A DNA stretch of 64,000 nt from Akkermansiaceae bacterium (lineage in GTDB: Bacteria > Verrucomicrobiota > Verrucomicrobiia > Verrucomicrobiales > Akkermansiaceae), in the NCBI GenBank assembly GCA_903934285.1, contig CAIZNN010000181.1, positions 48,765 to 112,764 of the forward strand, written 5' to 3'. How positions within the stretch are numbered: the first letter of the stretch is position 1; each line of letters opens with the position of its first letter. Made by a program: the position numbers and the translations under genes. This document shows positions 120-58,907 of this stretch, one piece after another. Below the pieces are notes generated by a model. That model saw only the letters and a list, made by a program, of their open reading frames with translations. It was not told the origin of the DNA and made no database searches.

Positions 120-1106
120 TCACTCCACCGATTCCTCCACGATGCTGGACAAAACGGTGTCCTCCAGCAGCACGGAACTGTTGGATTCCTGGGCGATGAA
201 ATATAGCGGGCGGCTGCGCACTTCGCCCAGAATGGTGCCGACATATTCGCTGAGCACGGCGAGAATCAAACAGACAAAGAAAAACATGCCGCTGAGTTGG
301 AGCGAGAGCGTCGTCCAGCCCGCGGCGACATCAGGTTTGAGCAGGAAAATGACCACCACGTATGCGGCATACAACAGATTGAGAAAAGCACCTAACAACC
401 CCGTGGCGGTCACCATGCGCAGCGGGTGGCGGGTGTTGGCGGCGAGCAGATCGATGGCGGTGGCAACCTCCACACCCCAGGTGGTGACGCGCGGCGCGCC
501 GGCCCTGGCCTGGATCGCGTATGAGAAGAACTCATGTTGATAGCCGAGGGTGAGGGTGAGCACGCGAAGGTAGCGGCTTTGCTCGCGAACTTGGAGCAAG
601 GCGTTGACCGCCTGCCGGTTCATCACCCGCAGGTCGCACACGCCGCGCTTGATGTCCACACCCAGATGCTTGACGCAGTAGGTCCGGAATGCGTTGCCGA
701 ACCACTCGCGCGCGAGCGAACGCCTCAGCGGATTGGTCGCCACCCCGTGGACGATCCCGCCGCTGTTACGGCAGAGATCTATCATCTGTGGGATGACCTC
801 GATCGGATCGGTCCGCGGGTCGAGGGTCACCACAAAATCGCCGATGGCGGACTCGATGCCGGCGGACAGGGCGACATCCCTGCCAAACGGCCTGGACAGC
901 CGCAGGTAACGCACGCGCTGGATTCGCTGCAGCAGGGGTTGCACCATCGCCGCAGTGCCATCGGTCGAACCGTCATCCACGAGGATGATTTCAAAAAAGC
1001 GGTAGGCCGAGGCGATAATCCGCTCGACCTCGATGACAATTTCCTCAAGCAGCAGGGCATCCTGCTCAAGCGGAACGACAATGCTGATTACGGTGTTCGG
1101 GTCCAT
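120..1106 (-). CDS. Glycosyltransferase family 2 with C-terminal membrane segments (DPM1/GtrB-like)
   Basis: SIVVPLEQD..ILVDDGSTDGT and LDPRTDPIEVIPQMI motifs, two hydrophobic C-terminal helices. Confidence 0.85.
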   Translation of the reverse strand: MDPNTVISIVVPLEQDALLLEEIVIEVERIIASAYRFFEIILVDDGSTDGTAAMVQPLLQRIQRVRYLRLSRPFGRDVALSAGIESAIGDFVVTLDPRTDPIEVIPQMIDLCRNSGGIVHGVATNPLRRSLAREWFGNAFRTYCVKHLGVDIKRGVCDLRVMNRQAVNALLQVREQSRYLRVLTLTLGYQHEFFSYAIQARAGAPRVTTWGVEVATAIDLLAANTRHPLRMVTATGLLGAFLNLLYAAYVVVIFLLKPDVAAGWTTLSLQLSGMFFFVCLILAVLSEYVGTILGEVRSRPLYFIAQESNSSVLLEDTVLSSIVEESVE

Positions 1107-1202
1107 TGGGAGAAAATGCTGGAATGCGGGAAAGTTGGCATGCTGGAATTGGTGATGTTTGGAGCGGAAGCCGACTGGAATTCCAGCGGCGCAGCATTTC
1201 AG

Positions 1203-2321
1203 TTAGCGGCTGGTTCCCAGCAACCGCGCCACTTCATCTTCCACGTCGAAGATATTGTCGATTTTCCCACCCATGACGTGAATGACGGCGGGAAGCTTCG
1301 CGTCGCGGTGAAACAGGATCGGCCTGCCGTCGTCGATTTCACTCAGCGGCAGCAGGGTTTTGACGGTCCACAACGAGTCGCGGTGCACCGCCCCCCGCAA
1401 CGACGGCACATAGCGCGAGGCATCGGCCACCATCAACTCGAAATGGCTTTGCTTATCGAGGGACTTGAATATCCGATAGGGATTGGAGGCGCCGGTTTGC
1501 TCGTTTTCAAACCAATGGGCATGCGGCGTGTAGCGCACATGGCTGAGGGTGGTCAGGCCCAGCGAGGGAAATGGCATGAAGGAGAAGAACGGCCCGCACA
1601 TCATGGTCACCGAGAGCCCGTCGAGGTTTTGCGGCAGCTCGACCAATGCCATTTCGGTCAGTTCGTGCTTCAAGGGAATGAGCGGCAAGCCTGAGGCGGA
1701 AGTGAGGCGATTCAAACCGGCGTAGGTGGCGTTGAACAGATATGCGCAGGGGCATTCGGAACCGTCCGAAAACCTGGCCAGCGCCCCGCTTGGATGGGGT
1801 GTCGCGGTTTGCACCAAGGTGTTAAGTCGCACCTCGATTCCCGCCGCCGCCAATTCCCGCTGCAGCTTGTCCCTGAGCACCGAAAAATCAAACGCGCATT
1901 CCTGCGCCAGCCAAATCCGCTCAGTCAACACCGGGTTGAACAGGCGCTGGATGGCGCTCGGCGCGGCCTTGAGCGGCGCGCCCACCCGCTTCATGAAAAC
2001 TTCGAACTGGTTGGCGGTGACCTTGGAGAAGAGCCGCCCGATGGCATAGACTTTGGTGAATTGATCGACGATCGCGTCGCGGTAATGCAAGCGGAACCTT
2101 TCGTAGTTCTGCCGCGACCGGTACGCCGTCATCAGACTGCGCGGGTAGTGATACCCGCCATGGACCCGGGCTTGGTTGATCCGTGATGCCTGGGTCAACA
2201 GTTCGCCCGCCTCCTCCACCACTATCGGCTGCCAACCCCTGCGCTGCAGCATCATGGCTATGGAGCAACCGAAGAAGCCGCCACCGGCGATGACCACACG
2301 GCGCTTTTCAGCATTACCCAT
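1203..2321 (-). CDS. FAD-dependent oxidoreductase (DAO-like)
   Basis: N-terminal Rossmann motif VVIAGGGFFGCSIAMMLQRRGW; overlaps the next gene by 8 bp. Confidence 0.8.
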   Translation of the reverse strand: MGNAEKRRVVIAGGGFFGCSIAMMLQRRGWQPIVVEEAGELLTQASRINQARVHGGYHYPRSLMTAYRSRQNYERFRLHYRDAIVDQFTKVYAIGRLFSKVTANQFEVFMKRVGAPLKAAPSAIQRLFNPVLTERIWLAQECAFDFSVLRDKLQRELAAAGIEVRLNTLVQTATPHPSGALARFSDGSECPCAYLFNATYAGLNRLTSASGLPLIPLKHELTEMALVELPQNLDGLSVTMMCGPFFSFMPFPSLGLTTLSHVRYTPHAHWFENEQTGASNPYRIFKSLDKQSHFELMVADASRYVPSLRGAVHRDSLWTVKTLLPLSEIDDGRPILFHRDAKLPAVIHVMGGKIDNIFDVEDEVARLLGTSR

Positions 2322-3120
2322 AACTCCCCCTAACTGCCGCCACTGCCTGTTTTATCGCATCAAGCCCGGCCGGTTGGGCCCGCATTTCGATGGCCACGCT
2401 GCCGGTGTAGCCGATTTCATGGAGCACGGCGGCGATGCGGGCATGGACCGCATCCGGTTCGGCAAAGGACCCGAGGTGGGGTTGACTGGCATGCACGTGG
2501 CGCAGCAGATGGGCACTTTGGCGCAAGCACGGTTCGAAGATCTCGCCGCTCAAGGCCAGCCCCCCGGCATCGACATGCAAACCGAAGCCCGGGGAATTGA
2601 CGGATTCGACCAACTCGGCGGCTTGTTCGAGCCGCGTGCAGAAATCGGCGCCATAGGCTTCCGGATTTGCTTCGATCACCAAACAGGACCCTGCCGCCAT
2701 GCACGCATCGCCCACTTCGCGAAACACCGCTGTGGCCCGCCGCGTGGCTTCGGCGTGGCTGAGGCAACCCCGCAACCGGTTGCGTGGCGAACCAAACACC
2801 AGCGGCCCTGCTCCTGCCCAACCGGCAACGCGCCCGACGGCTATCAGCACGGACTTCATCCGCTCGCACGACTCTGGCGCACCGAACAATTCCAACCCCT
2901 CGGTCCCGAACAACAGCGCCTGGAACGATCCGATCTTGAACCCCTGTTGGCGATACCATGCCGCACGCTCACGCACTGCGGACTCGCCCGCCGCCAGCGG
3001 ATCCCCGAACGCACGCAACGGCGCGACCTCGATTTCATCCAGACCCAAACCATGGAGGCATTCCAAGGCCGAGGCCTCGTCCTCCGGTGCCCATGCTATA
3101 TGCGAAAACGAAATGTTCAT
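2314..3120 (-). CDS. Sugar phosphate isomerase/epimerase (AP endonuclease-2-like TIM barrel)
   Basis: LVIEANPEAYGADFCTRLEQAAELVESV...LHVDAGGLALSGE pattern. Confidence 0.75.
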   Translation of the reverse strand: MNISFSHIAWAPEDEASALECLHGLGLDEIEVAPLRAFGDPLAAGESAVRERAAWYRQQGFKIGSFQALLFGTEGLELFGAPESCERMKSVLIAVGRVAGWAGAGPLVFGSPRNRLRGCLSHAEATRRATAVFREVGDACMAAGSCLVIEANPEAYGADFCTRLEQAAELVESVNSPGFGLHVDAGGLALSGEIFEPCLRQSAHLLRHVHASQPHLGSFAEPDAVHARIAAVLHEIGYTGSVAIEMRAQPAGLDAIKQAVAAVRGSYG

Positions 3121-3147
3121 GATGAGAAAATCTGTATGCTCCGGGAG

Positions 3148-3999
3148 CTAAGGCCGGGCCGGCCTATCCGCCCCGGATTCCTCCAACCACGATGCAAGAT
3201 CGGCAAACACCTGCGCCTTGCCATACAAATAGCCGTTCGCACCGCCCCACTCCGGCGCATGTCGCGAACGCATGTCATAGCCCGCCGGTGCCGGGCCTGT
3301 GCCACCCAGTGTTTTGCCCGGGAAAAACCGCTCGCAAATCTCGCCGGTGCCCAGCGGTTCGGTACTCACGTTGAGCAAGGGCAGCCCAAGCTCCCATGCC
3401 CGGTCGATGTCAGCCGCCAGATGCCGCAAATCATAATACTGAAACACCCCTTCCGGATGCACCTTCTCTAACCCATTGTCGTGGATCATGTCGAAGATGA
3501 CGTTTTTCTTGAGTCCCGGGCCGAACAGCCCGGGCAAACGCAGGATCAAAACCTCGGGAAAGCGGTCCCGGATCCAATCCTCCAACTCGACCCGGTGTAA
3601 CCCGTAGGCATGATGGCCGGCCCGCTCAATGGCGGAGTCCTCATCCACCTCCCGCGGTGCCGGATAGACATCGATGGTCGAGATCAGGGTGAAGCGCTTG
3701 GCTCGGACTTGGGAGAGTGGTTCCCGCAACCGCGCGATGCCGGCCCGGTCATCGGCGGGATGGAGATTGGCCCACCACTTCATCGCCTGCACTCCCGCAC
3801 ATACTATGTGCCCGAAGCTTTCACCCCGAATCGTGTCGATGTCCGAAGAGCGGTACTTCGAATCGTAAGCGCGCCGGGCGAGCAGATTGCTGCCGACGAA
3901 ACCGGTGTAGCCAATGAGTGCCGTGGACATGGGGATGTGGGGATATGGGGTTGTGGCGGGGCCGAATTCCACGGTCACTCGCTCAGCTTGCAGATTCAT
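3148..3999 (-). CDS. NAD-dependent epimerase/dehydratase-like protein
   Basis: ALIGYTGFVGSNLL Rossmann motif; 4-bp overlap with the upstream gene. Confidence 0.7.
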   Translation of the reverse strand: MNLQAERVTVEFGPATTPYPHIPMSTALIGYTGFVGSNLLARRAYDSKYRSSDIDTIRGESFGHIVCAGVQAMKWWANLHPADDRAGIARLREPLSQVRAKRFTLISTIDVYPAPREVDEDSAIERAGHHAYGLHRVELEDWIRDRFPEVLILRLPGLFGPGLKKNVIFDMIHDNGLEKVHPEGVFQYYDLRHLAADIDRAWELGLPLLNVSTEPLGTGEICERFFPGKTLGGTGPAPAGYDMRSRHAPEWGGANGYLYGKAQVFADLASWLEESGADRPARP

Positions 4000-4688
4000 G
4001 TTTCGATGACTTCGCCCGCCAGCTCGGGCTTGGCCGGCTTGACCCGCGCACGCAACAAGCGAACCAGAACAAAGGCGGCCACCAGCACCGCGATGCCGGT
4101 GATGGCCATGCCGAACCGACCTTCGAAAACGGCACCGCTGGTAAGGACGAAACCGACGACAAACACCCCATTGATGGGCACCGAGATAAGGATGTAGGGC
4201 AGGAACGGCACCGCCACCAGACCGAGAACGTAATTTTGCAGGAACAACGGCACTCCCGGAGTCACGCGCAGCAGCACGGTGAGTCTGATGCGGTCCTTAT
4301 GTTCCAGACTGCGCCAGCGGTCCCAATGCCGCCCTAACAGCCGAGCGACCAGCGGGCGCGCCGGACCCGCCGCCACCAGATAGGTCCATGTCATGTTCAG
4401 GAACATGGCGCAAACACTCAGCGCGCAACTCTGCCAATTGCTGCCCCAGGTCACGCCCGCGAGCACCAGCAAGGCACTGGCTGGACAGCCGAACGCCGGC
4501 AGCACCACCAGCGCGGCAAACAGCACGATCGGATAGGTGCGGCACCATTCAATAACCTGGTCTTTGGCGTGCCACAGCGTGCTGAGGAAATCCGGCCCGC
4601 GGCTGAGCCACAGCACCCCCGCGATTCCCGCGCCCGCCAGCAGAGACGCCAAACCCCAGCGGATTTTGGGGGACAGAGTGTGGAACAT
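3996..4688 (-). CDS. TVP38/TMEM64 (VTT/DedA-like) membrane protein
   Basis: Multiple TM segments; FGCPASALLVLAGVTWG and RVTPGVPLFLQNYVLGLVAVPFLPYILIS typical of VTT proteins. Confidence 0.8.
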   Translation of the reverse strand: MFHTLSPKIRWGLASLLAGAGIAGVLWLSRGPDFLSTLWHAKDQVIEWCRTYPIVLFAALVVLPAFGCPASALLVLAGVTWGSNWQSCALSVCAMFLNMTWTYLVAAGPARPLVARLLGRHWDRWRSLEHKDRIRLTVLLRVTPGVPLFLQNYVLGLVAVPFLPYILISVPINGVFVVGFVLTSGAVFEGRFGMAITGIAVLVAAFVLVRLLRARVKPAKPELAGEVIET

Positions 4689-4779
4689 GACAGACCGGAG
4701 TTATGGAAACATCAAACCGCCCCGGGGGGGGCGGCTGACCCTAACGAGGCGGGACCGCCTCAGACCAAGCAAACCGCGC

Positions 4780-6096
4780 TCAGGCTTTGACCACTTGCCC
4801 GGGCTGGGTGGCCACGCTGGCCATCGCGTTGCGCGTATCAATGATGAGCCCGGCGTGGGCAGCGAGCAGCGGCAAGTCAAAAGCCGCATGGTGGGTGGCA
4901 ATGACCACGCAATCCGCGGCGGCGAGCGTCGCCGGAGTGCACGCCACCGAGCAGGTGCCTGCCCAGTTCTGGTGCTCGCGGGTCGGCCCGATCACCGGCA
5001 CATGCGGGTCGTGATAGGTGACCTCGGCCCCAAGCTCGCTGAAGCGGTCTAACAGGGCGAAGGTGGGCGATTCGCGCATGTCATCAACGTTGGCCTTGTA
5101 GGCCAGTCCCATGAGCAGGATGCGACTGCCCTTGACCGCCTTGCCACGGCAATTGAGGGCCTCCATGGTGCGTTGGACGACATATTCGGGCATCGCCCGG
5201 TTGATCTCCCCGGCCAATTCGATGAAGCGGGTGTGCACCCCAAACTCGCGCGCTTTCCACGTCAGATAGAACGGATCAATCGGGATGCAATGCCCGCCAA
5301 GTCCCGGCCCCGGATAGAACGGCGTGAAGCCGAAGGGCTTGGTCGATGCCGCCCGGATGACCTCCCAAATATCGATGCCCATGCGGTCGGCGGCTATTTT
5401 CAATTCATTGATGAGGCCGATGTTGACCGAGCGATAGATGTTTTCCAACAATTTGGAAAGCTCGGCCACTTGGGTCGAGGAAACCGGCACGACCCGCTCG
5501 AAGGCCGCGCCATACAGCGCAGTGCCGGCTTGCAGGCAGGCCGCGGTGTGGCCGCCAACCACTTTGGGAATATTGGTCGCGGCAAACTGCGGATTGCCGG
5601 GATCCTCGCGCTCCGGCGAATACACGACGAATATGGCGTCGCCCACTTTGAAGCCGGCCGCCTCGACTCGGGTGACGACCTCTTCCTCGGTGGTGCCAGG
5701 ATAGGTGGTGCTTTCCAAACTCAGGATTTGGCCGGCCCGCAGGTGCGGCACCACCGTGTCCAGCGTCGCGGTGACGAAACTCAGATCCGGCTCGAGATGC
5801 TCATCAAGCGGGGTGGGCACGCACAAGATGATGGCGTCGCAGCTACCGATGCGGGAAAAATCGCTGGTGGCATCGAGTTTGCCGGAGCCGCGCGCCGCCG
5901 CTACCTGCGCGCTTGGAATGTGTTTGATATAACTCGTCCCGGCGTGCAGGTGCTCGATTTTCGTGCTGTCGATATCGAAACCAATCACCGCAAACCCCTT
6001 GTCGGCATAGGCAAGCACCAGCGGCAGTCCGACGTAGCCGAGCCCGACGACGCCGATAACAGAGGATTGTGGTTGGATACAGACGGGTTCGGACAT
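4780..6096 (-). CDS. Nucleotide sugar dehydrogenase (UDP-GlcNAc/UDP-HexNAc 6-dehydrogenase, WbpA-like)
   Basis: [50 protein letters not shown] motifs. Confidence 0.9.
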
Positions 6097-6124: not shown

Positions 6125-6145
6125 ACGCTACCGCCCTTGGTCGCT
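6125..6145 (-). promoter_or_regulatory. ops/JUMPstart-like antiterminator element, copy 2 (AGCGACCAAGGGCGGTAGCGT, followed by TTTT)
   Basis: Identical 21-mer to 13848-13868; core GGCGGTAGCGT; 28 nt upstream of the nucleotide-sugar dehydrogenase start; preceded by possible hairpin CGCCAG-GA-CTGGCG. Confidence 0.7.
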
Positions 6146-6277
6146 TGCGCCAGTCCTGGCGGAAAACCTGAGGGATCAATCGGGAAAATTTGCCACCGCA
6201 GCGCCCATCCGGATCACTGCCACGTCAAACTGACACGAATTCCCGCCTGTTCAATAAAAAATGAACAAAAAAACCCC

Positions 6278-7522
6278 TCACACAATCATCCCGGCGGCGA
6301 CCGTTTCGTTGGTGGCGGGATCGATGAGGATGAACGAGCCGGTTTGCCGGTTGCGGCGGTAGGAATCGTAGAACAACGGGACCGCCGCCCGCAGACAGAC
6401 GCGACCGATGTCGTTCATCGCAAACCCATCGACGTCCTCGATTTTGTGGAGCGTGTTGATATCGACGTGATACCGGACCTGTTGGACCACGGCCTTGGTT
6501 TCCTGGGTGGTGTGGCGGAGGATGAACTTGGCGCGCGGCGGCATGGCGCGGGGGGAAAACCAGCACACCATCGCCTCGATGTCCTGGCCGACCTGCGGCG
6601 GATTGTTGGCCTTGACCAGCATGTCGCCGCGGGAAATGTCGATTTCGTCGGTGAGGGTGAGGCACACCGATTGCGGCGCGAACGCTTCACTGAGCTCCCC
6701 CTTGGGGCTATGGATGGCCTTGACGCGGGTGGTGAAACCGGACGGCAGCACCGTGACGGCGTCCCCGGGTTTGAAGACCCCACCCGCGACGCGGCCAGCG
6801 TAGCCGCGGAAATCATGCCACTCGTCGCTCATCGGGCGCACCACCCATTGGACCGGGAAGCGCGCCTCGACGTGGTTCTCCTCACCGGCAACATAGACGT
6901 TCTCCAGATGATAGAGCAGGGTCGGCCCCTCATACCACCCCATGTTTGCGGATTTTTCGACGACATTGTCGCCATTGAGCGCCGAAATGGGAATGAAGAC
7001 GATTTCGACAATGTTATCCAGGCGCGAGGCAAACTCACGAAACTCCTCGATAATCCGATGGTACCCGGCCTCGCTGAAGCCAACCAGATCCATCTTATTG
7101 ACGGCGACGACGAGGTGCTGGATGCGCAACAAATTGGCGATGAAGCAGTGCCGCTTGGTCTGCTCGATGACGCCTTTGCGGGCGTCGATGAGAATGATGG
7201 CGAGATTGGCCGTGGAGGCGCCGGTCACCATGTTGCGGGTATATTGGATATGCCCCGGCGTGTCGGCGATGATGAATTTGCGTTTCGGGGTGGCAAAATA
7301 GCGATAGGCGACGTCGATGGTGATCCCCTGTTCGCGCTCGGCCTTGAGACCGTCGGTGAGCAACGCCAGGTTGACGTTGGCGTCGCCGCGCCGCCGCGAC
7401 GATTCCTCCATGGCCTCAAGTTGATCCTCGAAAATGGACTTGGAGTCGTAAAGCAAGCGCCCTATCAGGGTGGATTTGCCGTCGTCAACCGAACCGGCGG
7501 TGGTGAAGCGGAGGAGGTCCAT
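6278..7522 (-). CDS. cysN: Sulfate adenylyltransferase subunit 1 (GTPase)
   Basis: AGSVDDGKSTLIGRLLYDSK, DTPGHIQYTRNMVTGAS, NKMD GTPase motifs. Confidence 0.95.
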   Translation of the reverse strand: MDLLRFTTAGSVDDGKSTLIGRLLYDSKSIFEDQLEAMEESSRRRGDANVNLALLTDGLKAEREQGITIDVAYRYFATPKRKFIIADTPGHIQYTRNMVTGASTANLAIILIDARKGVIEQTKRHCFIANLLRIQHLVVAVNKMDLVGFSEAGYHRIIEEFREFASRLDNIVEIVFIPISALNGDNVVEKSANMGWYEGPTLLYHLENVYVAGEENHVEARFPVQWVVRPMSDEWHDFRGYAGRVAGGVFKPGDAVTVLPSGFTTRVKAIHSPKGELSEAFAPQSVCLTLTDEIDISRGDMLVKANNPPQVGQDIEAMVCWFSPRAMPPRAKFILRHTTQETKAVVQQVRYHVDINTLHKIEDVDGFAMNDIGRVCLRAAVPLFYDSYRRNRQTGSFILIDPATNETVAAGMIV

Positions 7523-7530
7523 GGGTGAGT

Positions 7531-8466
7531 CTAAAAGTAACCTTCTTTCTTCCGGTCTTCCATCGCGGTTTCGGAGCGCTTGTCGTCGGAGCGGGTGCCG
7601 CGTTCGGTTTGCCGCGCGGCGGCCACCTCGGCGATGACTTCGTCGAGATTGGAAGCTGTGGATTCAACCGCCCCGGTGCAGGTGGCATCGCCAATGGTCC
7701 GGAAGCGCACCACCCGCGAGGCGGCGGTTTCGTGGCTCTGGGGTTTGAGGAATTCAGTGACCGCCAGCAGCATGCCGTTGCGTTGGAAAACCTCGCGGTT
7801 ATGGGCAAAGTAAATCGATGGCAGCGGGATCTCCTCACGTTTCATATACATCCATATATCCATCTCGGTGAAGTTGGAGAGCGGGAAGATGCGGAAGTGC
7901 TCACCGGGATTTTTGCGACCGTTGAACAAGTTCCAGAGTTCCGGGCGCTGGTTTTTCGGATCCCACTGGCCGAAATCATCCCGATGCGAGAAAAACCGCT
8001 CTTTGGCGCGGGCCTTTTCCTCGTCGCGGCGCCCGCCGCCCAGGCACGCATCATATTGGTGTTGCTCGATGGTATCGAGCAAGGTGACGGTTTGCAGTTT
8101 GTTGCGCGAGGCACCCGGCCCGGTCTCTTCGACCACCCGCCCCCGATCTATCGACTCCTGCACCGATCCGACAATCAGTCGGGCCGCCAGCAGCACGACA
8201 AATTCGTCGCGATACGCCATGGTCTCAGCAAAATTGTGCCCAGTATCAACGTGCACCAGCGGAAAAGGCATGCGCGCCGGCCAAAACGCTTTGCGCGCCA
8301 GCCATGCCATCACAATCGAGTCCTTGCCCCCCGAAAACAACAGCGCTGGTTTCTCAAATTGCGCGGCTGCCTCCCGAAGCACGAAAATCGCTTCGGCTTC
8401 AAGTTGGTCAAGGTGACTGAATCGGTAATTGGACATGGGGCGTGGGGCAACCAGCAGGAGGGGCAC
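7531..8466 (-). CDS. cysD: Sulfate adenylyltransferase subunit 2
   Basis: LFSGGKDSIVMAWLARKAFWP PP-loop, LVHVDTGHNFAE, GGGRRDEEKARAKERFFS. Confidence 0.95.
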   Translation of the reverse strand: MPLLLVAPRPMSNYRFSHLDQLEAEAIFVLREAAAQFEKPALLFSGGKDSIVMAWLARKAFWPARMPFPLVHVDTGHNFAETMAYRDEFVVLLAARLIVGSVQESIDRGRVVEETGPGASRNKLQTVTLLDTIEQHQYDACLGGGRRDEEKARAKERFFSHRDDFGQWDPKNQRPELWNLFNGRKNPGEHFRIFPLSNFTEMDIWMYMKREEIPLPSIYFAHNREVFQRNGMLLAVTEFLKPQSHETAASRVVRFRTIGDATCTGAVESTASNLDEVIAEVAAARQTERGTRSDDKRSETAMEDRKKEGYF

Positions 8467-8580
8467 TGCGACCGCAGTTGGCTAACCACGGCGCCGCCCA
8501 AACTAGGGCCCCGCTGCGCTCCCGTCAAGAAATAATAGGTTTGTAGATCAGTTTAATATAGTATACTGATTCACAACGAG

Positions 8581-9180
8581 TTACAACTCCGGATTGATGG
8601 AAATCCGGTCGGTGATGGCTTCGAGGAGCTCAAACGCGGCGTCCTGCACCGAGGAGGTCTCGGTATTGAGGACGAGCGCGGGGTTTTGCGGAGGCTCGAA
8701 CGACCCGTCCTTGCCGGTGAAATGCGCGATCTCGCCCCGGGCCGCCTTGGCGTAGAGACCTTTCACGTCACGCTTTTCGCAAGTGGCATAGGACGCTTCG
8801 ACGTAGACCTCGAACAAATCCGCGCCGAGCAGACCGCGCACCAAGTCGCGGAGTTCGCCGCGCGGGGTGATGGCAGAGACAAAGGTGATGATCCCCTGCG
8901 ACACAAACAATTTAGCCGTCTCGGCAATCCGGCGGATGTTTTCCAGCCGGTCCTCGTCGCTGAACCCCAGGTTTGAATTCAGCCCGCTACGCAGGTTGTC
9001 GCCATCCAGAATAACGGTGACGCGACCTTGCTGGTACAAAACGCGCTCCGCGGCATTGGCGATGGTCGACTTGCCGGACCCGGACAGCCCACAAAGCCAT
9101 ACCACAATGCCACGCTGGCGCAGCAGCACCTGCTTGTCGTGGCGATTGAGGAAGCGGTGGAACTCAGGGTGGATGTTCAT
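8581..9180 (-). CDS. cysC: Adenylylsulfate kinase
   Basis: WLCGLSGSGKSTIANA P-loop, LDGDNLRSGLNSNLGFSDEDRLENIRR, DVKGLYAKAARGEI. Confidence 0.95.
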   Translation of the reverse strand: MNIHPEFHRFLNRHDKQVLLRQRGIVVWLCGLSGSGKSTIANAAERVLYQQGRVTVILDGDNLRSGLNSNLGFSDEDRLENIRRIAETAKLFVSQGIITFVSAITPRGELRDLVRGLLGADLFEVYVEASYATCEKRDVKGLYAKAARGEIAHFTGKDGSFEPPQNPALVLNTETSSVQDAAFELLEAITDRISINPEL

Positions 9181-9275
9181 AAGAAAATCGGAAGAGAGAG
9201 TGGATGCTCTGAATGGCGCAAGGACGGAAGCTCCGAATGGCCGCAGCAGCTGCTGTCGGGGAGTGGGTGGGACGT

Positions 9276-10067
9276 TCAGACGTTGCGACTTTCAGACCCT
9301 CCAACCCGCCGCAACATATCACGAAAAACGTGATAGAGAAAGAGGCAATTGTAAGTTAAGTAACGCCGGAACAGCCGCCGGGGCTCCATGCAGAGCCGGT
9401 AGAGCCATTCCAGCCCCAGCCGCTGCACGAGCGCCGGAGCCTGGTTGACTTCGCCGGCGTGAAACGCGAAGGCCGCCCCAATCGCAAAGTAAACCCCGGG
9501 AGGCAGGCGCTCCTTGTGCCTGGCGATCCATTGCTCCTGCCGCGGGCAGCCGAGCCCAACCCAGATCAGATTGGCGTCGGCCGCGCGGATTCGTTGGCAA
9601 ATCCGCTCAAACTCGTCCGCTGGCCAGTCGCCAAAAGGCGGCGCATAGGTGCCGCCAATGACGGCACCCGGAAAGCGTGACGCAAAAACTGCCGTGAGCT
9701 TGCTCAGCGTGGCCGGTTTCCCGCCTAACAAAAAATGCCGCAACTCCCCCACCCCGGCGCTGGCTTTGAGTACTTCCAGCATCAAGCTGGGACCGTACAC
9801 GCGGTCGCGGAGTTTCTCCGCCGCCGCCAGACGCGAGTTGACCGCCCACAGCAAGGGCATGCCGTCGGGACAAATCAGATCAAAGCGCTCCATGGCTTGA
9901 CCAAAGGCAACATCCGTGCGCGCCAGCGCGGCCACATGGGTATTGGCGGCTGCCACCGCATAGGCGCGCTCACCCGTCCCGGCGCGCTCAATCGCCCATG
10001 CCACCGCGCCCGCGTAATCGGTCGCAGCAATCGGCAAGCCAATGACTGGAATGGTTCGCATACCCAT
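9276..10067 (-). CDS. WecG/TagA/CpsF family glycosyltransferase
   Basis: AAANTHVAALARTD..LICPDGMPLLWAVN, IWVGLGCPRQEQWIARHKERLPPGVYFAIGAAFAFHAGEVNQAP; start moved to MGMRTIPVIG because the upstream 120 aa of the ORF overlap the next gene out of frame. Confidence 0.9.
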   Translation of the reverse strand: MGMRTIPVIGLPIAATDYAGAVAWAIERAGTGERAYAVAAANTHVAALARTDVAFGQAMERFDLICPDGMPLLWAVNSRLAAAEKLRDRVYGPSLMLEVLKASAGVGELRHFLLGGKPATLSKLTAVFASRFPGAVIGGTYAPPFGDWPADEFERICQRIRAADANLIWVGLGCPRQEQWIARHKERLPPGVYFAIGAAFAFHAGEVNQAPALVQRLGLEWLYRLCMEPRRLFRRYLTYNCLFLYHVFRDMLRRVGGSESRNV

Positions 10068-10161
10068 CAATTCGCCGGAATCCCGCGGGGCGGCACGCGC
10101 CCACTTATTTGCCCGCATGGGCGCTGCAGAGGTGCGGCGCACGGGCCGCGCACCAGCTGCC

Positions 10162-11244
10162 TCACACCCGGCAGAACGGTTCGACCGCGCGGAGATTGGC
10201 GTTGCCAGCCAGCGCCTGTGTCCGCAGCTCCGGCTCGTCAAACAGATAGAGCGCGTAGCCGCCGTGGCCCCCCCCACAATATTTGCAGGCAAGCGCTCCG
10301 GGCAGCGGCGGCAATGGTTCCATCCCCTCGTCAAGTTGGCTTTGATGATAGACCGACATCCCTTCAGCCAGACGCTGCCAATCGGCATGCAATGCCCCCT
10401 CCCGGGCAATGCGTGCCGACTCGGCAATCCGCCCGTAATCCCGCGGATGGTTCGCCACGCTGGGGGTGTCGTGAGGTTTGCCAGTCCACAGGATGGCCAG
10501 GCACCCTGTTAGAAAATCCCCGTTCCGCTTGAAGTCAAGCACCGGAGTGTTGCCGGAACGCCAGACACACAGGCCGGTCTCGCGAATCACCGCCGGATCC
10601 TGCCAGCCCACTCCCAGACCAAACTCCGAATCGACCCCATCACGACCGTTGAGCAGCGCCCACGCACCGCTGCCACCCAGGCCGGCCTGCTTCTCATAGG
10701 GCCATTCGCGCAGTGACACCAGCGGTGAAATGGCACAGTTGACGATGAACTCGCCTGGCCGCGCAAAACGCGGCACATCCAACCACCCACCGGCAAAATC
10801 GACGCGCAGCGGCGCCTCGGTGGGCGCCTGCACCCAGCGCACAATCGAACTGGTGGAAACCGGTTCAAACCGCGGCGGGGTCTTGGGCAGCACCGTGTAT
10901 TGAGCACCCACCCGGGCGCACAGCTCGCGCTTGACCTCGCCGTATTTGTCGTCCTCGGTGACGATGAGGAAATCCGGGCGAATGCGCAGGAAATCCTCCG
11001 CGAAATCCAATCCTTCCTGGTGCCCCTGGGTGACAATCACCTCGTCGATCATACGCAGGCCCATCAGCAGGGCGCGCTTGTGATCATCGGGAATCGACGG
11101 CTTGCGGCGCTTGTGGTGCCACAGCACCTCGGCGGAGGCAAACGAGACAATCAGATAATCCCCCAACGCCCGCGCCTCTTCAAAAAACTGCAGGTGGCCG
11201 GCGTGGAGGATGTCGTAACATCCTGAAACAAATACTTTTTTCAT
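10162..11244 (-). CDS. Bifunctional cytidylyltransferase (TagD/RfaE-C-like) - GHMP kinase fusion
   Basis: N-term VFVSGCYDILHAGHLQFFEEARALGDYLIV (HxGH nucleotidyltransferase); C-term APLRVDFAGGWLDVPRF, GLGGSGAWALL, KYCGGGHGGYALYLF (GHMP kinase-like motifs). Confidence 0.85.
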   Translation of the reverse strand: MKKVFVSGCYDILHAGHLQFFEEARALGDYLIVSFASAEVLWHHKRRKPSIPDDHKRALLMGLRMIDEVIVTQGHQEGLDFAEDFLRIRPDFLIVTEDDKYGEVKRELCARVGAQYTVLPKTPPRFEPVSTSSIVRWVQAPTEAPLRVDFAGGWLDVPRFARPGEFIVNCAISPLVSLREWPYEKQAGLGGSGAWALLNGRDGVDSEFGLGVGWQDPAVIRETGLCVWRSGNTPVLDFKRNGDFLTGCLAILWTGKPHDTPSVANHPRDYGRIAESARIAREGALHADWQRLAEGMSVYHQSQLDEGMEPLPPLPGALACKYCGGGHGGYALYLFDEPELRTQALAGNANLRAVEPFCRV

Positions 11245-11294
11245 GTGGATTACTCTTGGGCTGCGATGAGCGCGGGAATTTCAGCAATTTGGAT

Positions 11295-12455
11295 TCAAGG
11301 GTGCAGCCAGTCCGCGATGGCGGCTATGACTTCGTCGCATTGGGCGGCGCTCAATTCCGGATAGACCGGAATGCTCAGCACCTCGCCGGTAAGGGATTCA
11401 GACACCGGACATGCCTGGATCGCGTGGGCCGGCAATTGCTTGAAACATGCCTGCTGATGGAGTGCCACCGGATAGTAAATCTCACAGCCAATGCCACGCG
11501 CCGTGAGGTGGCTCTTGAGCGCATCACGCCGGCCCGGCCCTGGCACCCGCAGCGTGAACTGATTCCAGACGTGCCCCCGGTCGGCCGCAGCCTGCGGCAG
11601 CACGATCCGCGCCGCCTCGCCGCCATCGCCGGCCAGCGCCTGGCCGACCCCGGGCAACCGCGACAACCGCGCGATGTAGTCCGTGGCGTTGGCGACCCGG
11701 CCGGCAGTATAGGCTCCAAGGTGCCGCAGCTTCACCCGCAACAGGGCGCACTGGAGTGCATCCATCCGGAAGTTGGCACCCACCGTCGCATGATAATAGC
11801 GCGGATGCATGCCATGATTGCGAATCCGCCGGAGTTGTTCCGCCACCTCCCCATCCTGCGTCGTGACCAATCCACCATCACCAAATCCTCCCAGATTCTT
11901 CGACGGGAAAAAACTGAAGCATCCCATCGCACCGAGCGTGCCGCAACCGCGGCCTTGATAGGTGGCGCCGATCGCTTGCGCCACATCCTCAATGACGCGC
12001 AGCCCGTGGGCCGCGGCAAAAGCGCCGAGGCCAGCCATGTCTGCCGCCTGGCCGAACAAATGCACCGGCACGATCGCTTTGGTCCGCGGCGTGAGACGGG
12101 CCGCCGCGGACTCGAGGTCAAGATTGAAGCTGACCGGGCAGACATCGCAAAACACCGGAATGGCCCCGGTCCGCGCAATGCACCCGGCGGTTGCGAAAAA
12201 CGTGAACGCCGGACATAGCACCTCATCCCCCGGCCCGATGCCAAGGGCCATGAAGGCCGCCAACAGCGCGTCGGTGCCCGATGACATCGACACCGCATGC
12301 CCGGCACCGATGACTGCCGCGCATTCCGCTTCAAACGCCTCCACTTCGTCGCCGAGTATGAAGCGCCCCGTGCGGAGCACTCGGCTGAAGGCCGCGGTGA
12401 GTTCCTCTTCCAGCGGGTGATTCTGGGCATTGACGTCAAGCAGTGGGACGGGCAT
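11295..12455 (-). CDS. DegT/DnrJ/EryC1/StrS family PLP-dependent sugar aminotransferase
   Basis: VPLLDVNAQNHPLEEEL, MSSGTDALLAAFMALGIGPGDEVLCPAFTFFATAG, CFSFFPSKNLGGFGDGG. Confidence 0.93.
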   Translation of the reverse strand: MPVPLLDVNAQNHPLEEELTAAFSRVLRTGRFILGDEVEAFEAECAAVIGAGHAVSMSSGTDALLAAFMALGIGPGDEVLCPAFTFFATAGCIARTGAIPVFCDVCPVSFNLDLESAAARLTPRTKAIVPVHLFGQAADMAGLGAFAAAHGLRVIEDVAQAIGATYQGRGCGTLGAMGCFSFFPSKNLGGFGDGGLVTTQDGEVAEQLRRIRNHGMHPRYYHATVGANFRMDALQCALLRVKLRHLGAYTAGRVANATDYIARLSRLPGVGQALAGDGGEAARIVLPQAAADRGHVWNQFTLRVPGPGRRDALKSHLTARGIGCEIYYPVALHQQACFKQLPAHAIQACPVSESLTGEVLSIPVYPELSAAQCDEVIAAIADWLHP

Positions 12456-12481
12456 GGGATGATCGATTGTTAGTTTGAATC

Positions 12482-13657
12482 TCAGGTGATTGGGCAACCA
12501 TAACGGAGCAGGAGCTTCTCGGCTTCGGCAAGGGCCATGCCGACTACCTGGTCCATGTTATAATAGCGGTAGCTCGCGAGGCGGCCCACAAAGCTCACAT
12601 TCGCTTCGCCAGCCGCCAGCTGGACGTAGCGCTGGTAGGCGGCGCGTGCGTCAGGCGCGGGAATCGGATAGTATGGCTCTTCTCCCCGCTGCCAATCCTT
12701 GGGGTATTCCCGCACGATGGTGGTGGCAGCCACTTGTTGTCCGGTGGCATGCTTGATCTCCACTATCCGGGTCAACGGCACCTCCGGTTCCGGGTAGTTC
12801 ACTTGCATCGCAGGCTGCCAAAACCCGGGCTTGCCCGCAATCGCCTCACGGCCCGCCAGTTGCCCGGGCGAAAATGATTCCGCCTCAAACCGCAACGAGC
12901 GATACGGCAAGGGACCATGCCTGTACGCGAAATATTCATCAACCGCTCCGGTGAACACCAGGTGCCTGCAACGCCAGCGTTGGCGCGCCTCCTGGAAATC
13001 CACCCCAAGATGAAGCTCCACCCCGCCGGACGCCGCCAGCATCCGCTCAAACAGCGCAGTGTATCCGTGCGCCGGCAGCGCTTGGAATTCTTCAGTTAGA
13101 TAGCGGTCGTCGCGATCAATCCGCAGCGGGATGCGGCCGCACACCGACACATCCAACTCGCGCGGATGCCGCCGCCATTGCTTGAGCGTGTAGCTCTCAA
13201 AAAACAGTTCGTAGAGCTCCCTGCCAACCTGCGAGATGATGACTTCCTCCGAATTGCGCGGGGCCGCAATCGGCACCCGCACCGCGGCTAACCACGCGGC
13301 GAATTCCCCGCTGTTTGACGGCCGCCCAAGATACTCCTCAAACGTGTTGAGATTAATCGGAAAGCTCCAATACCGCCCCCGGGCATAACTCTTGATCGTG
13401 TATGCCACCGCGTGCCACCCGGTAAACCGCGACAGGTACTCGACAATCCGCGCGGCATTGGTGCGGAAATAGTGCGGACCGTAGCGATGCACCAAAACCC
13501 CCGCGGCATCGGTTTCATCGTAGGCATTGCCACCAACATGCCCCCGCCGGTCCACCACCACGCAATGCCACCCCGCCGCGGCCAGCCGCTCGGCCATCAC
13601 ACAACCGGCAAACCCGGCGCCGATGATCAGAAAATCTGTGGAGGCGTCCGGTTGCAT
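12482..13657 (-). CDS. glf: UDP-galactopyranose mutase
   Basis: FLIIGAGFAGCVMAERLAAAGWHCVVVDRRGHVGGNAYDETDAAGVLVHRYGPHYFRT; YPVP-type C-terminal region YYNMDQVVGMAL. Confidence 0.95.
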   Translation of the reverse strand: MQPDASTDFLIIGAGFAGCVMAERLAAAGWHCVVVDRRGHVGGNAYDETDAAGVLVHRYGPHYFRTNAARIVEYLSRFTGWHAVAYTIKSYARGRYWSFPINLNTFEEYLGRPSNSGEFAAWLAAVRVPIAAPRNSEEVIISQVGRELYELFFESYTLKQWRRHPRELDVSVCGRIPLRIDRDDRYLTEEFQALPAHGYTALFERMLAASGGVELHLGVDFQEARQRWRCRHLVFTGAVDEYFAYRHGPLPYRSLRFEAESFSPGQLAGREAIAGKPGFWQPAMQVNYPEPEVPLTRIVEIKHATGQQVAATTIVREYPKDWQRGEEPYYPIPAPDARAAYQRYVQLAAGEANVSFVGRLASYRYYNMDQVVGMALAEAEKLLLRYGCPIT

Positions 13658-13847
13658 GCTCGCGTTAGACTGAAATGCCTGCTGCTATCAGCGCCCTCAG
13701 TGGTTGACAGTGGCCGCTCCGGTTGATGCCGCCCGATTCACCCCGCAGCAGCTGGCGCTTGCGCCATCCCGTGGCTTGTGGGTTGGCGCGCATGCCCGGC
13801 GCCGCTGCGCCGCTCATCTCCGCCAGCCCCCGCTCATGGCTCCACGC

Positions 13848-13868
13848 ACGCTACCGCCCTTGGTCGCT
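13848..13868 (-). promoter_or_regulatory. ops/JUMPstart-like antiterminator element, copy 1 (AGCGACCAAGGGCGGTAGCGT, continuing GC)
   Basis: Minus strand reads AGCGACCAAGGGCGGTAGCGTGC; GGCGGTAGCGTG is identical to the 12-nt E. coli ops core; lies in the leader between the RfaH/NusG-like gene and glf; identical 21-mer at 6125-6145. Confidence 0.75.
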
Positions 13869-14030
13869 CCTCCCGCTTCTTGGAGAAAACCTATCACTTG
13901 GGCTGGGTAATGTTTGGGCTGGCACCGTTTTGCTGTTCTCCCCCTACGGGGAATAGCTCACGGCCACTATCGGTTCAATCATAACAAAACATTTCACGAC
14001 GTTCGCATTGGCTGACTTGGGGCAGTCGCG

Positions 14031-14579
14031 TCAAGGCATCGGACGCCGCGGCAGCAGGATGGAAAACAGATCCATGTCAATCGCTTGCGGCTGCCCCAGA
14101 AAATCCATCAGGATCTTCACCCGTTCCGCTGCCGGCGCAATGCTCACCACCACCCCGCGCATGCCCGCCAGCGGACCGCTGGCCACTTCGACCTCATCGC
14201 CACACTCAATCGCCGGCGTGACGGTGAGGATTTCCTCGTCCGCGGTGGCATGACTGCGGATCTCCGCGCGCAACACCTCGACGAAGGACTCCGGCACCGA
14301 CGGAATCTCCGGCCCGAACCGCACCAGCCCACGCACGCCTTGGCAAAAGGTCACCGCCCGCTCGCTTTCCATTAGCTTGAACTTCGCCAACAGATAGCCC
14401 GGAAACAACGGCTCCAGCCACCATACCGTGCCTCGCCGCGTCGCCTTGCGATACCTCAAGCGCGGACAAAACACCTCGATGCCCTCCAGTTCGCGCAGAT
14501 GCTCGGCGGCTATGTGCTCCCGCTTCGTCTGGGTGCGCACGCAAAACCACGCCGCTTCGTTCATGTCAAATTCGTTCAT
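14031..14579 (-). CDS. NusG-paralog transcription antiterminator (RfaH/LoaP-like)
   Basis: WFCVRTQTKREHIAAEHLRE..IEVFCPRLRYRK..WWLEPLFPGYLLAKFKL (NGN) and GDEVEVASGPLAGMRGVVVSI..RVKILMDFLGQPQAIDMD (KOW); start overlaps the upstream stop (ATGA). Confidence 0.92.
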   Translation of the reverse strand: MNEFDMNEAAWFCVRTQTKREHIAAEHLRELEGIEVFCPRLRYRKATRRGTVWWLEPLFPGYLLAKFKLMESERAVTFCQGVRGLVRFGPEIPSVPESFVEVLRAEIRSHATADEEILTVTPAIECGDEVEVASGPLAGMRGVVVSIAPAAERVKILMDFLGQPQAIDMDLFSILLPRRPMP

Positions 14580-15106
14580 TCCCCTAAGAGTTTTTGAAGT
14601 ACCGGTAGCACCCGCCCGCTGCTGCGCATCCAATGCTCAATGCGCCCCAACCGTTCGGTTAGAAATTCCCGCCGCTCGGGGTTGCCTTCCACCCGCACCG
14701 CCTCCCCAAGCCGCCCGATCTTCACTTTGCCGCTATCCAGATGGGGGCGGATTTGCTCGCGGATGAAGCCGCCGACCAAGCGTTTCAATTCCACTGCCGG
14801 CTCGAAATACGTCCGCCGTTCCTCGCCCACCGCCGCCTCACGGACCGCCCCGAGCCCCTTCAAGGCACGCAAGCCTTGGCTGGCCGAGCCCTTGCTGATG
14901 CCCAACCGCAGCACCAAGTCATCCAACGCCAGCGGCTCCTGCGAAATAAACAACAACCCGTATATCTCCCCTATCGACCGGGGCAAACCCAGCACCCTCA
15001 CCCCATCCACAAAAAAATCCACCACCTGCCGCTCCAGCGCTCCAAGCTCACTCGCTCCCTTTGACTCATTGTCCAACTGGCGGTTCATGGCCAACATTGT
15101 AGCCAC
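14576..15106 (-). CDS. GbsR/MarR-like winged-helix transcriptional regulator
   Basis: LPRSIGEIYGLLFISQEPLALDDLVLRLGISKGSASQGLRALKGLGAVREAAVGEERRTYFEP. Confidence 0.85.
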   Translation of the reverse strand: MATMLAMNRQLDNESKGASELGALERQVVDFFVDGVRVLGLPRSIGEIYGLLFISQEPLALDDLVLRLGISKGSASQGLRALKGLGAVREAAVGEERRTYFEPAVELKRLVGGFIREQIRPHLDSGKVKIGRLGEAVRVEGNPERREFLTERLGRIEHWMRSSGRVLPVLQKLLGE

Positions 15107-57671: not shown

Positions 57672-58907
57672 TCAAAGCTGCCATGGTTCGCGGCGGGCCC
57701 GATCGATGAAGCGGTTGGCCTCGTCGTCGCCGATGAATTGTTGTTTCGCCGCGTCCCACTTGAGCGAGCGGCCCAAGGTGTAGGCGATGATGCCGAGATG
57801 ACAGACGGTCACGGTATTGACGGCGAGTTCGATGTCGCGGAAGGGCTTGGCGCGGGTCTTGATGCACTCCAGGAAATCGGCGCCGATGCCGCCCTTGGCC
57901 GCATATTCAGGGATCTTCTTGGGCTCGCGCTTCTCACCGGGAGTGCCGTCGACTTGATGCTGCGATTTGCCCGGCTTGTTGAGAGTCAGCTCGACGCCGT
58001 TGGGATACTTGAAGGCAAGCCATCTCTTGTCGCCCTCCACGGTGAGGATCACCTCCGTCGGTTGCAGTTCGCGCACGTCCACGGCGAAGGTGGCGCCACC
58101 GATGTGATGGGCGCCCCAGTCGGTCATGTTGCCGCCGGAATAATCGGAATAGGACCGCCAACTGCCACCCTCGCAAGAGAAGTTGCCGTCGCAGCGACTG
58201 TGATTGTAGGGTGCCCAGGGTGCCGGCCCGAGCCACATTTCCCAGTCCATGTCGGCGGGGCAATTCTCGGCCGGCAAGTTGCATGCCTTGGAGATTGTCC
58301 CCATCTCGACGTTGATCGCCTTGATCGGGCCGAGTTCGCCGCTCCAACAGGGATTGACGATCTTGCGGTAATCCTCCAGGACGCGCTGGCTGCCGCCGGA
58401 TACCACGCGGCCGTAGCGGCGGGCGGCTTCGACGACCAGCTGGCCCTCGCGCAAGGTGCGGGTTTCCGGTTTCTGGCAGAAAACATCCTTGCCGGCGCGG
58501 CAAGCCTCGATGATCTGGATGCCATGCCAGTGGTCCGGGGTGGCGATGTGCACCGCGTCGATGTCCTCGCGAGCCAGCATCTCGCGGAAATCAACGTAGG
58601 CTTTGCAGTCCTTGTTGCCATATTTCCCGTCGACCTGGTTCTTGCGCTCATTGCGGACGTTGCCGCGCACTTCGCACACGCCGACATACTGCACCAGCGG
58701 GTTGTTGAGGAAATTGCTCATGTCGCCGCTGCCCATGTTGCCCAGGCCGATGCCGCCCATGACGATGCGGTTGCTGGGTGCGGGCTTCTCGTCATTGCCA
58801 AGTGCGCTGGAGGGAATGATGGTGGGAAACCCGAGGGCGACGGTCGTCAAACCGGTCGCTTTCAGGAAATCACGGCGTGTGTGTTGGTTCTGCTTCGTCT
58901 GGGACAT
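57672..58907 (-). CDS. Gfo/Idh/MocA oxidoreductase with Tat signal
   Basis: HTRRDFLKATGLTTVALGFP; GIGLGNMG, DAVHIATPDHWHGIQIIEACRAGKDVFCQKP. Confidence 0.93.
   Translation of the reverse strand: MSQTKQNQHTRRDFLKATGLTTVALGFPTIIPSSALGNDEKPAPSNRIVMGGIGLGNMGSGDMSNFLNNPLVQYVGVCEVRGNVRNERKNQVDGKYGNKDCKAYVDFREMLAREDIDAVHIATPDHWHGIQIIEACRAGKDVFCQKPETRTLREGQLVVEAARRYGRVVSGGSQRVLEDYRKIVNPCWSGELGPIKAINVEMGTISKACNLPAENCPADMDWEMWLGPAPWAPYNHSRCDGNFSCEGGSWRSYSDYSGGNMTDWGAHHIGGATFAVDVRELQPTEVILTVEGDKRWLAFKYPNGVELTLNKPGKSQHQVDGTPGEKREPKKIPEYAAKGGIGADFLECIKTRAKPFRDIELAVNTVTVCHLGIIAYTLGRSLKWDAAKQQFIGDDEANRFIDRARREPWQL

Follow-up and report, generated by a model that had tools for sequence, protein, structure and literature searches.

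The data suggest that Verrucomicrobiota possess their own, so far undescribed variety of the RfaH/ops system, known from Proteobacteria: a 44-nt composite leader element, made of a covarying RNA hairpin followed by an ops-like core, which by our comparative sequence analysis very probably signals processive, factor-dependent antitermination in the leaders of polysaccharide operons. The window, the whole 64,000-nt stretch of Akkermansiaceae DNA that was analysed, carried two such elements and a gene for a specialised NusG paralogue (Table 1), and the lineage was Verrucomicrobiota, a possibility that the preliminary description of this DNA had raised. That description had reported an E. coli-like ops site behind an RfaH-like gene; the hairpin directly upstream of the site and the second element were both overlooked in it.

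Table 1. Coordinates of the features discussed in the text.
Feature	Position	Strand	Evidence or content
Composite leader element 1	13848..13891	-	model R1 58.2 bits, E 1.2e-16; RNA fold; covariation
Element 1, P1	GGUU 13891-13888 / GACC 13865-13862	-	
Element 1, P2 hairpin	13887-13882 / 13873-13868	-	8-nt loop
Element 1, bulge	13867-13866	-	2 nt
Element 1, linker AA	13861-13860	-	
Element 1, ops-like GGGCGGUAGCGU	13859-13848	-	
ops-identical 12-mer GGCGGTAGCGTG	13847..13858	-	3' end of the 44-nt element 1
Composite leader element 2, ops-like GGCGGTAGCGTT	6125..6168	-	model R1 58.4 bits, E 1.1e-16
Specialised NusG paralogue, NGN + KOW	14031..14579	-	Pfam NusG 1.3e-12
MarR/GbsR-like HTH gene	14576..15106	-	Pfam MarR_2 8e-5
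glf, UDP-galactopyranose mutase	12482..13657	-	Pfam GLF 1.6e-64; first gene past element 1
Remaining polysaccharide gene run	6278..12497	-	neighbouring-gene annotation: DegT aminotransferase, cytidylyltransferase-like, WecG glycosyltransferase, APS kinase, PAPS_reduct-like, GTP_EFTU (CysN-like)
Genes past element 2	120..6096	-	neighbouring-gene annotation: UDPG/GDP-Man dehydrogenase, VTT-domain protein, one protein without Pfam match, xylose-isomerase-like TIM barrel, DAO, family 2 glycosyltransferase

The 12-mer identical to E. coli ops was present as an exact match, one base away from the coordinates 13848-13868 first given for it, and the minus-strand string was found at 13841-13867 as quoted. 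The site lay, as described, in a noncoding leader, the 373 nt that separate the NusG-paralogue stop (14031) from the glf start (13657), on the coding strand of both genes and at the head of a polysaccharide operon, with element 1 preceding glf and the polysaccharide gene run. No convincing intrinsic terminator or sigma-70 promoter was found in this leader, and no poly-U terminator followed the element. The bare 12-mer was without significance: with up to two mismatches the window held 8 matches versus 9.4 expected, and the whole genome held two exact copies, one inside a beta-hexosaminidase-like ORF, versus five for the reversed control. In the comparison with background frequency that had been proposed earlier as a way of refuting the site, the 12-mer occurred at background frequency in the genome and was dropped as evidence, whereas the longer context of hairpin plus core was far above chance. 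Copies C31 and C131 of the same genome, in coding DNA and without a hairpin, were dismissed as chance, and so were 19-mer matches outside Verrucomicrobia (Actinobacteria, Alphaproteobacteria and others), which had no upstream hairpin. A weak ops-only match in the window, CCAAGGGCGGCATCGG at 57883-57900 on the minus strand (model R1, E 0.44), had no hairpin and is probably also due to chance.

Element 1 (13891-13848) consisted of GGUU, a covarying hairpin, a 2-nt bulge, GACC, A-N and GGGCGG[C/U]AGCGU, and in loci of the genus the same block read GGUUU-hairpin-NC-GACC-A-N-GGGCGG[C/U]AGCGU. The ops-like site was kept in relatives, but the conserved unit was this covarying hairpin with its core and not the E. 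coli 12-mer. The 16-nt core CCANGGGCGGYAGCGT was found at 142 sites in 74 genomes of the window's genus, compared to 3 sites for the reversed pattern. The window's own genome had six such sites, of which five carried the hairpin; the sixth (C131) was hairpin-less and lay within a coding frame. Both ends of the hairpin were anchored, with P1, the bulge and the first six P2 pairs free of gaps. Over 85 unique hairpins, 87.5% of P2 cells were paired, compared to 55.7 +/- 1.8% when the arms were swapped between species; slid registers paired less (64% at best), all four Watson-Crick pairs were in use in the P2 columns, and a separate count on 22 sequences gave a covariation score of 0.562 versus 0.136 after shuffling. 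P1 was almost invariant within the genus and showed compensatory changes in other families (U-A to C-G; U.G to C-G or U-A). The folding energy of the single element sequence was below significance (z -1.1), and the structural case for the predicted hairpin stands on covariation, not on folding energy.

Among 102 hairpins found without requiring ops, about 100 had the ops core at fixed spacing behind them, a count biased upwards because the loci were partly picked via that core; model R1, which joins hairpin and ops, was likewise built from sites picked via the core. Core positions G1G2C3G4G5 and A7G8C9 were almost invariant, position 6 was C or T (C in about 70% of sites), and T11 and G12 were present in 94% and 57%, respectively. 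In E. coli ops, changes of G4, G5, A7 and G8 abolish RfaH recruitment, changes of C3 and T6 weaken it, and G12C loses the U11 pause without abolishing recruitment (PMC5995543). Comparison of the conserved positions with these mutation effects indicates that the part retained here is the recruitment core.

The element was linked to the NusG paralogue, which was present in most genomes of the genus. Of 49 genus loci selected through the paralogue protein alone, 40 had the element 50-190 nt past the paralogue stop codon, ahead of polysaccharide genes, as had been predicted for relatives; at least one of the other nine was cut by a contig end, and a few loci had no element behind the paralogue. 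Of 74 genus genomes, 68 had elements at E <= 0.01, with between one and thirteen per genome, and all six genomes without any element also had no paralogue. Elements were found in 49 of 49 paralogue-positive and in 5 of 11 paralogue-negative genomes (Fisher p = 9e-6; p = 4e-4 when restricted to genomes at least 90% complete), these five being mostly incomplete assemblies, with one (G031) 92% complete.

Across the phylum, 60 loci were fetched by protein, and 22 carried the element at E <= 2e-4, with 5 more showing it weakly at the same place. Strong elements (E < 1e-5) were present in 31 of 380 genomes, spread over seven families, and usually lay directly behind the paralogue; Opitutales and Kiritimatiellales/Pontiella are among the named examples. 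All 31 genomes were among the 81 of 380 that were paralogue-positive (p = 7e-24, uncorrected for relatedness); this and the genus p-values overstate independence, since the genomes are related, and many assemblies are incomplete. The link was not universal, as many paralogue-bearing families had no recognisable element, indicating that the paralogue does not always need a signal of this kind. In family f27 (loci L278, L284 and L288) and in other families the paralogue was accompanied by a weak element or none, and their loading signal may differ. Among 582 genomes of three other groups (182 Gammaproteobacteria, 201 Planctomycetota and 199 Bacteroidota), the model had no match better than E 5e-5. 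The MarR/GbsR-like gene overlapped the paralogue start by ATGA, and tblastn placed it next to the paralogue in 62 loci drawn from across the phylum; it is probably part of the paralogue module and perhaps its regulator.

The genome held only two NusG-family genes, a housekeeping NusG and the paralogue at 14031-14579, which as a second copy with NGN and KOW domains classes as a NusG-SP. The protein had been called RfaH-like; it is a NusG paralogue, but the curated cut-off does not class it as RfaH, and it differs from RfaH at most ops-contact residues. Its scores were below the curated cut-offs of the RfaH (TIGR01955; 67.4 bits, cut-off 144.5), UpxY (NF033644; 62.2 bits, cut-off 100) and LoaP (NF033641; 56.1 bits, cut-off 125) models, which places it as a specialised NusG paralogue outside all three families. 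All 68 members of the phylum alignment matched these NCBIfam models. The best sequence matches among solved structures were 8f5g ("NusG", 2.5e-9) and RfaH (7.6e-9). AlphaFold2 with 68 sequences gave a model with pLDDT 88, superseding by its deeper alignment an earlier one from 28 close sequences with pLDDT 60 and low-confidence helices in the C-terminal domain (CTD). The C-terminal KOW domain is predicted as a beta-barrel, though it may still switch fold to the alpha-helical autoinhibitory form known from RfaH. Foldseek matches of the model included NusG, RfaH bound to the ops-paused complex (8phk) and 8f5g, whose title is "NusG-RNA complex" and which we take to be LoaP; the closest structural matches of the predicted fold are of the NusG/RfaH/LoaP type.

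The RfaH residues K10, H20, R23 and R73, which contact ops, corresponded to Q, H, E and Q in the window protein. Only H20 was retained, also within the genus, as were RfaH E48 and F81, and R8/K12/R13 were strongly conserved in the genus instead of K10, R23 and R73. With these three residues replaced, direct recognition of ops bases via the contacts of RfaH is unsupported. The loop I-F-G, with which NusG contacts Rho, was F-L-G in the paralogue.

The elements preceded polysaccharide genes both in cis and in trans. Element 2 had the same structure as element 1 and was flanked by the CysN-like gene and the UDP-glucose/GDP-mannose dehydrogenase gene. In the window's own genome, elements preceded glf and UDPGDH and, on C1 and C278 respectively, a gene resembling GDP-mannose 4,6-dehydratase and one for an initiating sugar transferase, Bac_transf. 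At 29 cis sites of the genus the next gene was most often GLF (17) or an epimerase (8). The first genes at 46 sites, nearly all trans copies but with cis sites of other genera not purged, were dominated by Bac_transf (10), GDP-mannose dehydratase/epimerase (9), GLF (5), SIS/GATase (3) and Wzz (3). In the window's own and in related genomes the core occurred in leaders of unlinked operons, as ops does for RfaH, with either C or T tolerated at position 6. At least ten genus genomes carried two elements on one strand at a distance of 8-13 kb. The APS kinase, PAPS_reduct-like and CysN-like genes (6278-9180, minus strand) within the polysaccharide run suggest a sulfated polysaccharide. One relative (G018; loci L226 and L227 and other contigs) carried five elements with identical scores, on different contigs and within DNA rich in repeats; this may be a cluster that was duplicated or is mobile.

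Three other explanations were weighed. A chance 12-mer in a GC-rich leader would fit the background frequency of the bare 12-mer, but it is hardly credible given the conserved 44-nt context, the covariation, the synteny and the 16-mer enrichment, and conservation in relatives refutes it. A gammaproteobacterial JUMPstart/ops element gained horizontally would explain why CCA-N-GGGCGGUAGCGU is common to the element and E. coli JUMPstart, together with a GG..CC-closed hairpin at equal spacing. We consider such a gain very unlikely, as the hairpin differs in length and sequence and the element is spread over many Verrucomicrobiota families, accompanied by a resident paralogue that the phylum has conserved; the Rfam JUMPstart model (RF01707) scored element 1 at only 14.6 bits, below its gathering score of 35 and with the hairpin unaligned, compared to 57.3 bits for the E. 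coli wza control, and an Rfam scan of nine related loci gave no match.

The hairpin and core could also form a pause or attenuation signal for another reader, with the NusG paralogue a mere neighbour; ribosome loading, NusA, Rho, a small molecule and an RNA-binding protein outside the known ones were considered. The first ORF often begins a few tens of nt past the ops-like core, which fits ribosome loading, and some element-bearing genomes had no detected paralogue. This explanation is nevertheless unlikely, because presence of the element tracks the paralogue, copies in trans, on other contigs, stand before genes of the same functional class, the leader has no poly-U terminator past the element, and the ops-like core is a known loading signal for a NusG paralogue in E. 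coli (PMC5995543).

For the preferred reading, a signal for processive antitermination, we infer the following course. RNA polymerase transcribing the leader would pause at GGGCGG[C/U]AGCGU, a near match to the E. coli ops pause, and the GGUU..GACC hairpin would by then be just out of the exit channel, the 3' base of P1 being 14 nt behind the ops U at the RNA 3' end. Non-template ops bases would recruit the NusG paralogue encoded just upstream, both in cis and at the trans copies, with the hairpin, as RNA or as DNA, perhaps acting as a second recruiter. It would then remain on the polymerase, exclude NusG/Rho and suppress pausing and termination along clusters of 10-20 kb, a second element within the cluster may reload it, and the MarR/GbsR-like gene probably sets its supply. 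Dual recruitment on one paused elongation complex, by nascent RNA hairpin as for LoaP and by non-template ops DNA as for RfaH, is a tentative proposal that we hold at somewhat below even confidence. If true, it would link the two known modes of recruitment and make ops/JUMPstart widespread rather than proteobacterial.

RfaH is mostly proteobacterial according to a review (PMC7593976), and a conserved stem-loop among JUMPstart elements was described by Weinberg et al., with Gammaproteobacteria listed (PMC2864571); for Verrucomicrobia, our search of the open-access literature turned up no work on ops or JUMPstart. Recruitment of specialised NusG paralogues other than RfaH has been described as unknown (PMC6391919, PMC7593976), with the RNA hairpin of LoaP a later exception (PMC12691694). 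Here one phylum supplies the paralogue together with a precise signal of 44 nt, targets both in cis and in trans, and natural variation. Recruitment and the part played by the JUMPstart RNA hairpin can thereby be tested directly, and the system gives a handle on regulation of surface polysaccharides in Verrucomicrobiota.

Compared to known systems, the element shares with LoaP/dfn of Bacillota a NusG paralogue tied to a leader RNA hairpin, but the dfn hairpin is of the UNCG type, whereas here an ops core follows the hairpin at fixed spacing; we know of no non-template DNA signal for LoaP dfn. As with UpxY in Bacteroides capsule operons, the NusG paralogue gene heads a polysaccharide locus; UpxY, however, works on the leader that precedes its own gene, and the element described here is downstream of the paralogue gene. 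With JUMPstart RNA it has in common a G-G/C-C-closed hairpin, A-N and GGGCGGUAGCGU ahead of polysaccharide genes, and the presence of these features in E. coli wza JUMPstart makes spacing and core common to both; it differs in having GGUU/GACC as P1, a conserved bulge and a P2 that is longer and free in sequence, and it lacks the U-A and c-g pairs that form the outer part of the Rfam stem. E. coli RfaH/ops likewise combines a NusG paralogue with the core G1G2C3G4G5.6A7G8C9 on the non-template strand of polysaccharide operon leaders at several unlinked targets. In E. coli, however, position 6 is T where C predominates here, and G12 is not conserved here; a covarying hairpin precedes the core, the paralogue is encoded beside a target whereas RfaH is unlinked, the contact residues are Q, H, E and Q, the CTD is a predicted beta-barrel, and the phylum is different. 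The best reading of this comparison is that the system would work like RfaH/ops-JUMPstart while being a member of neither family.
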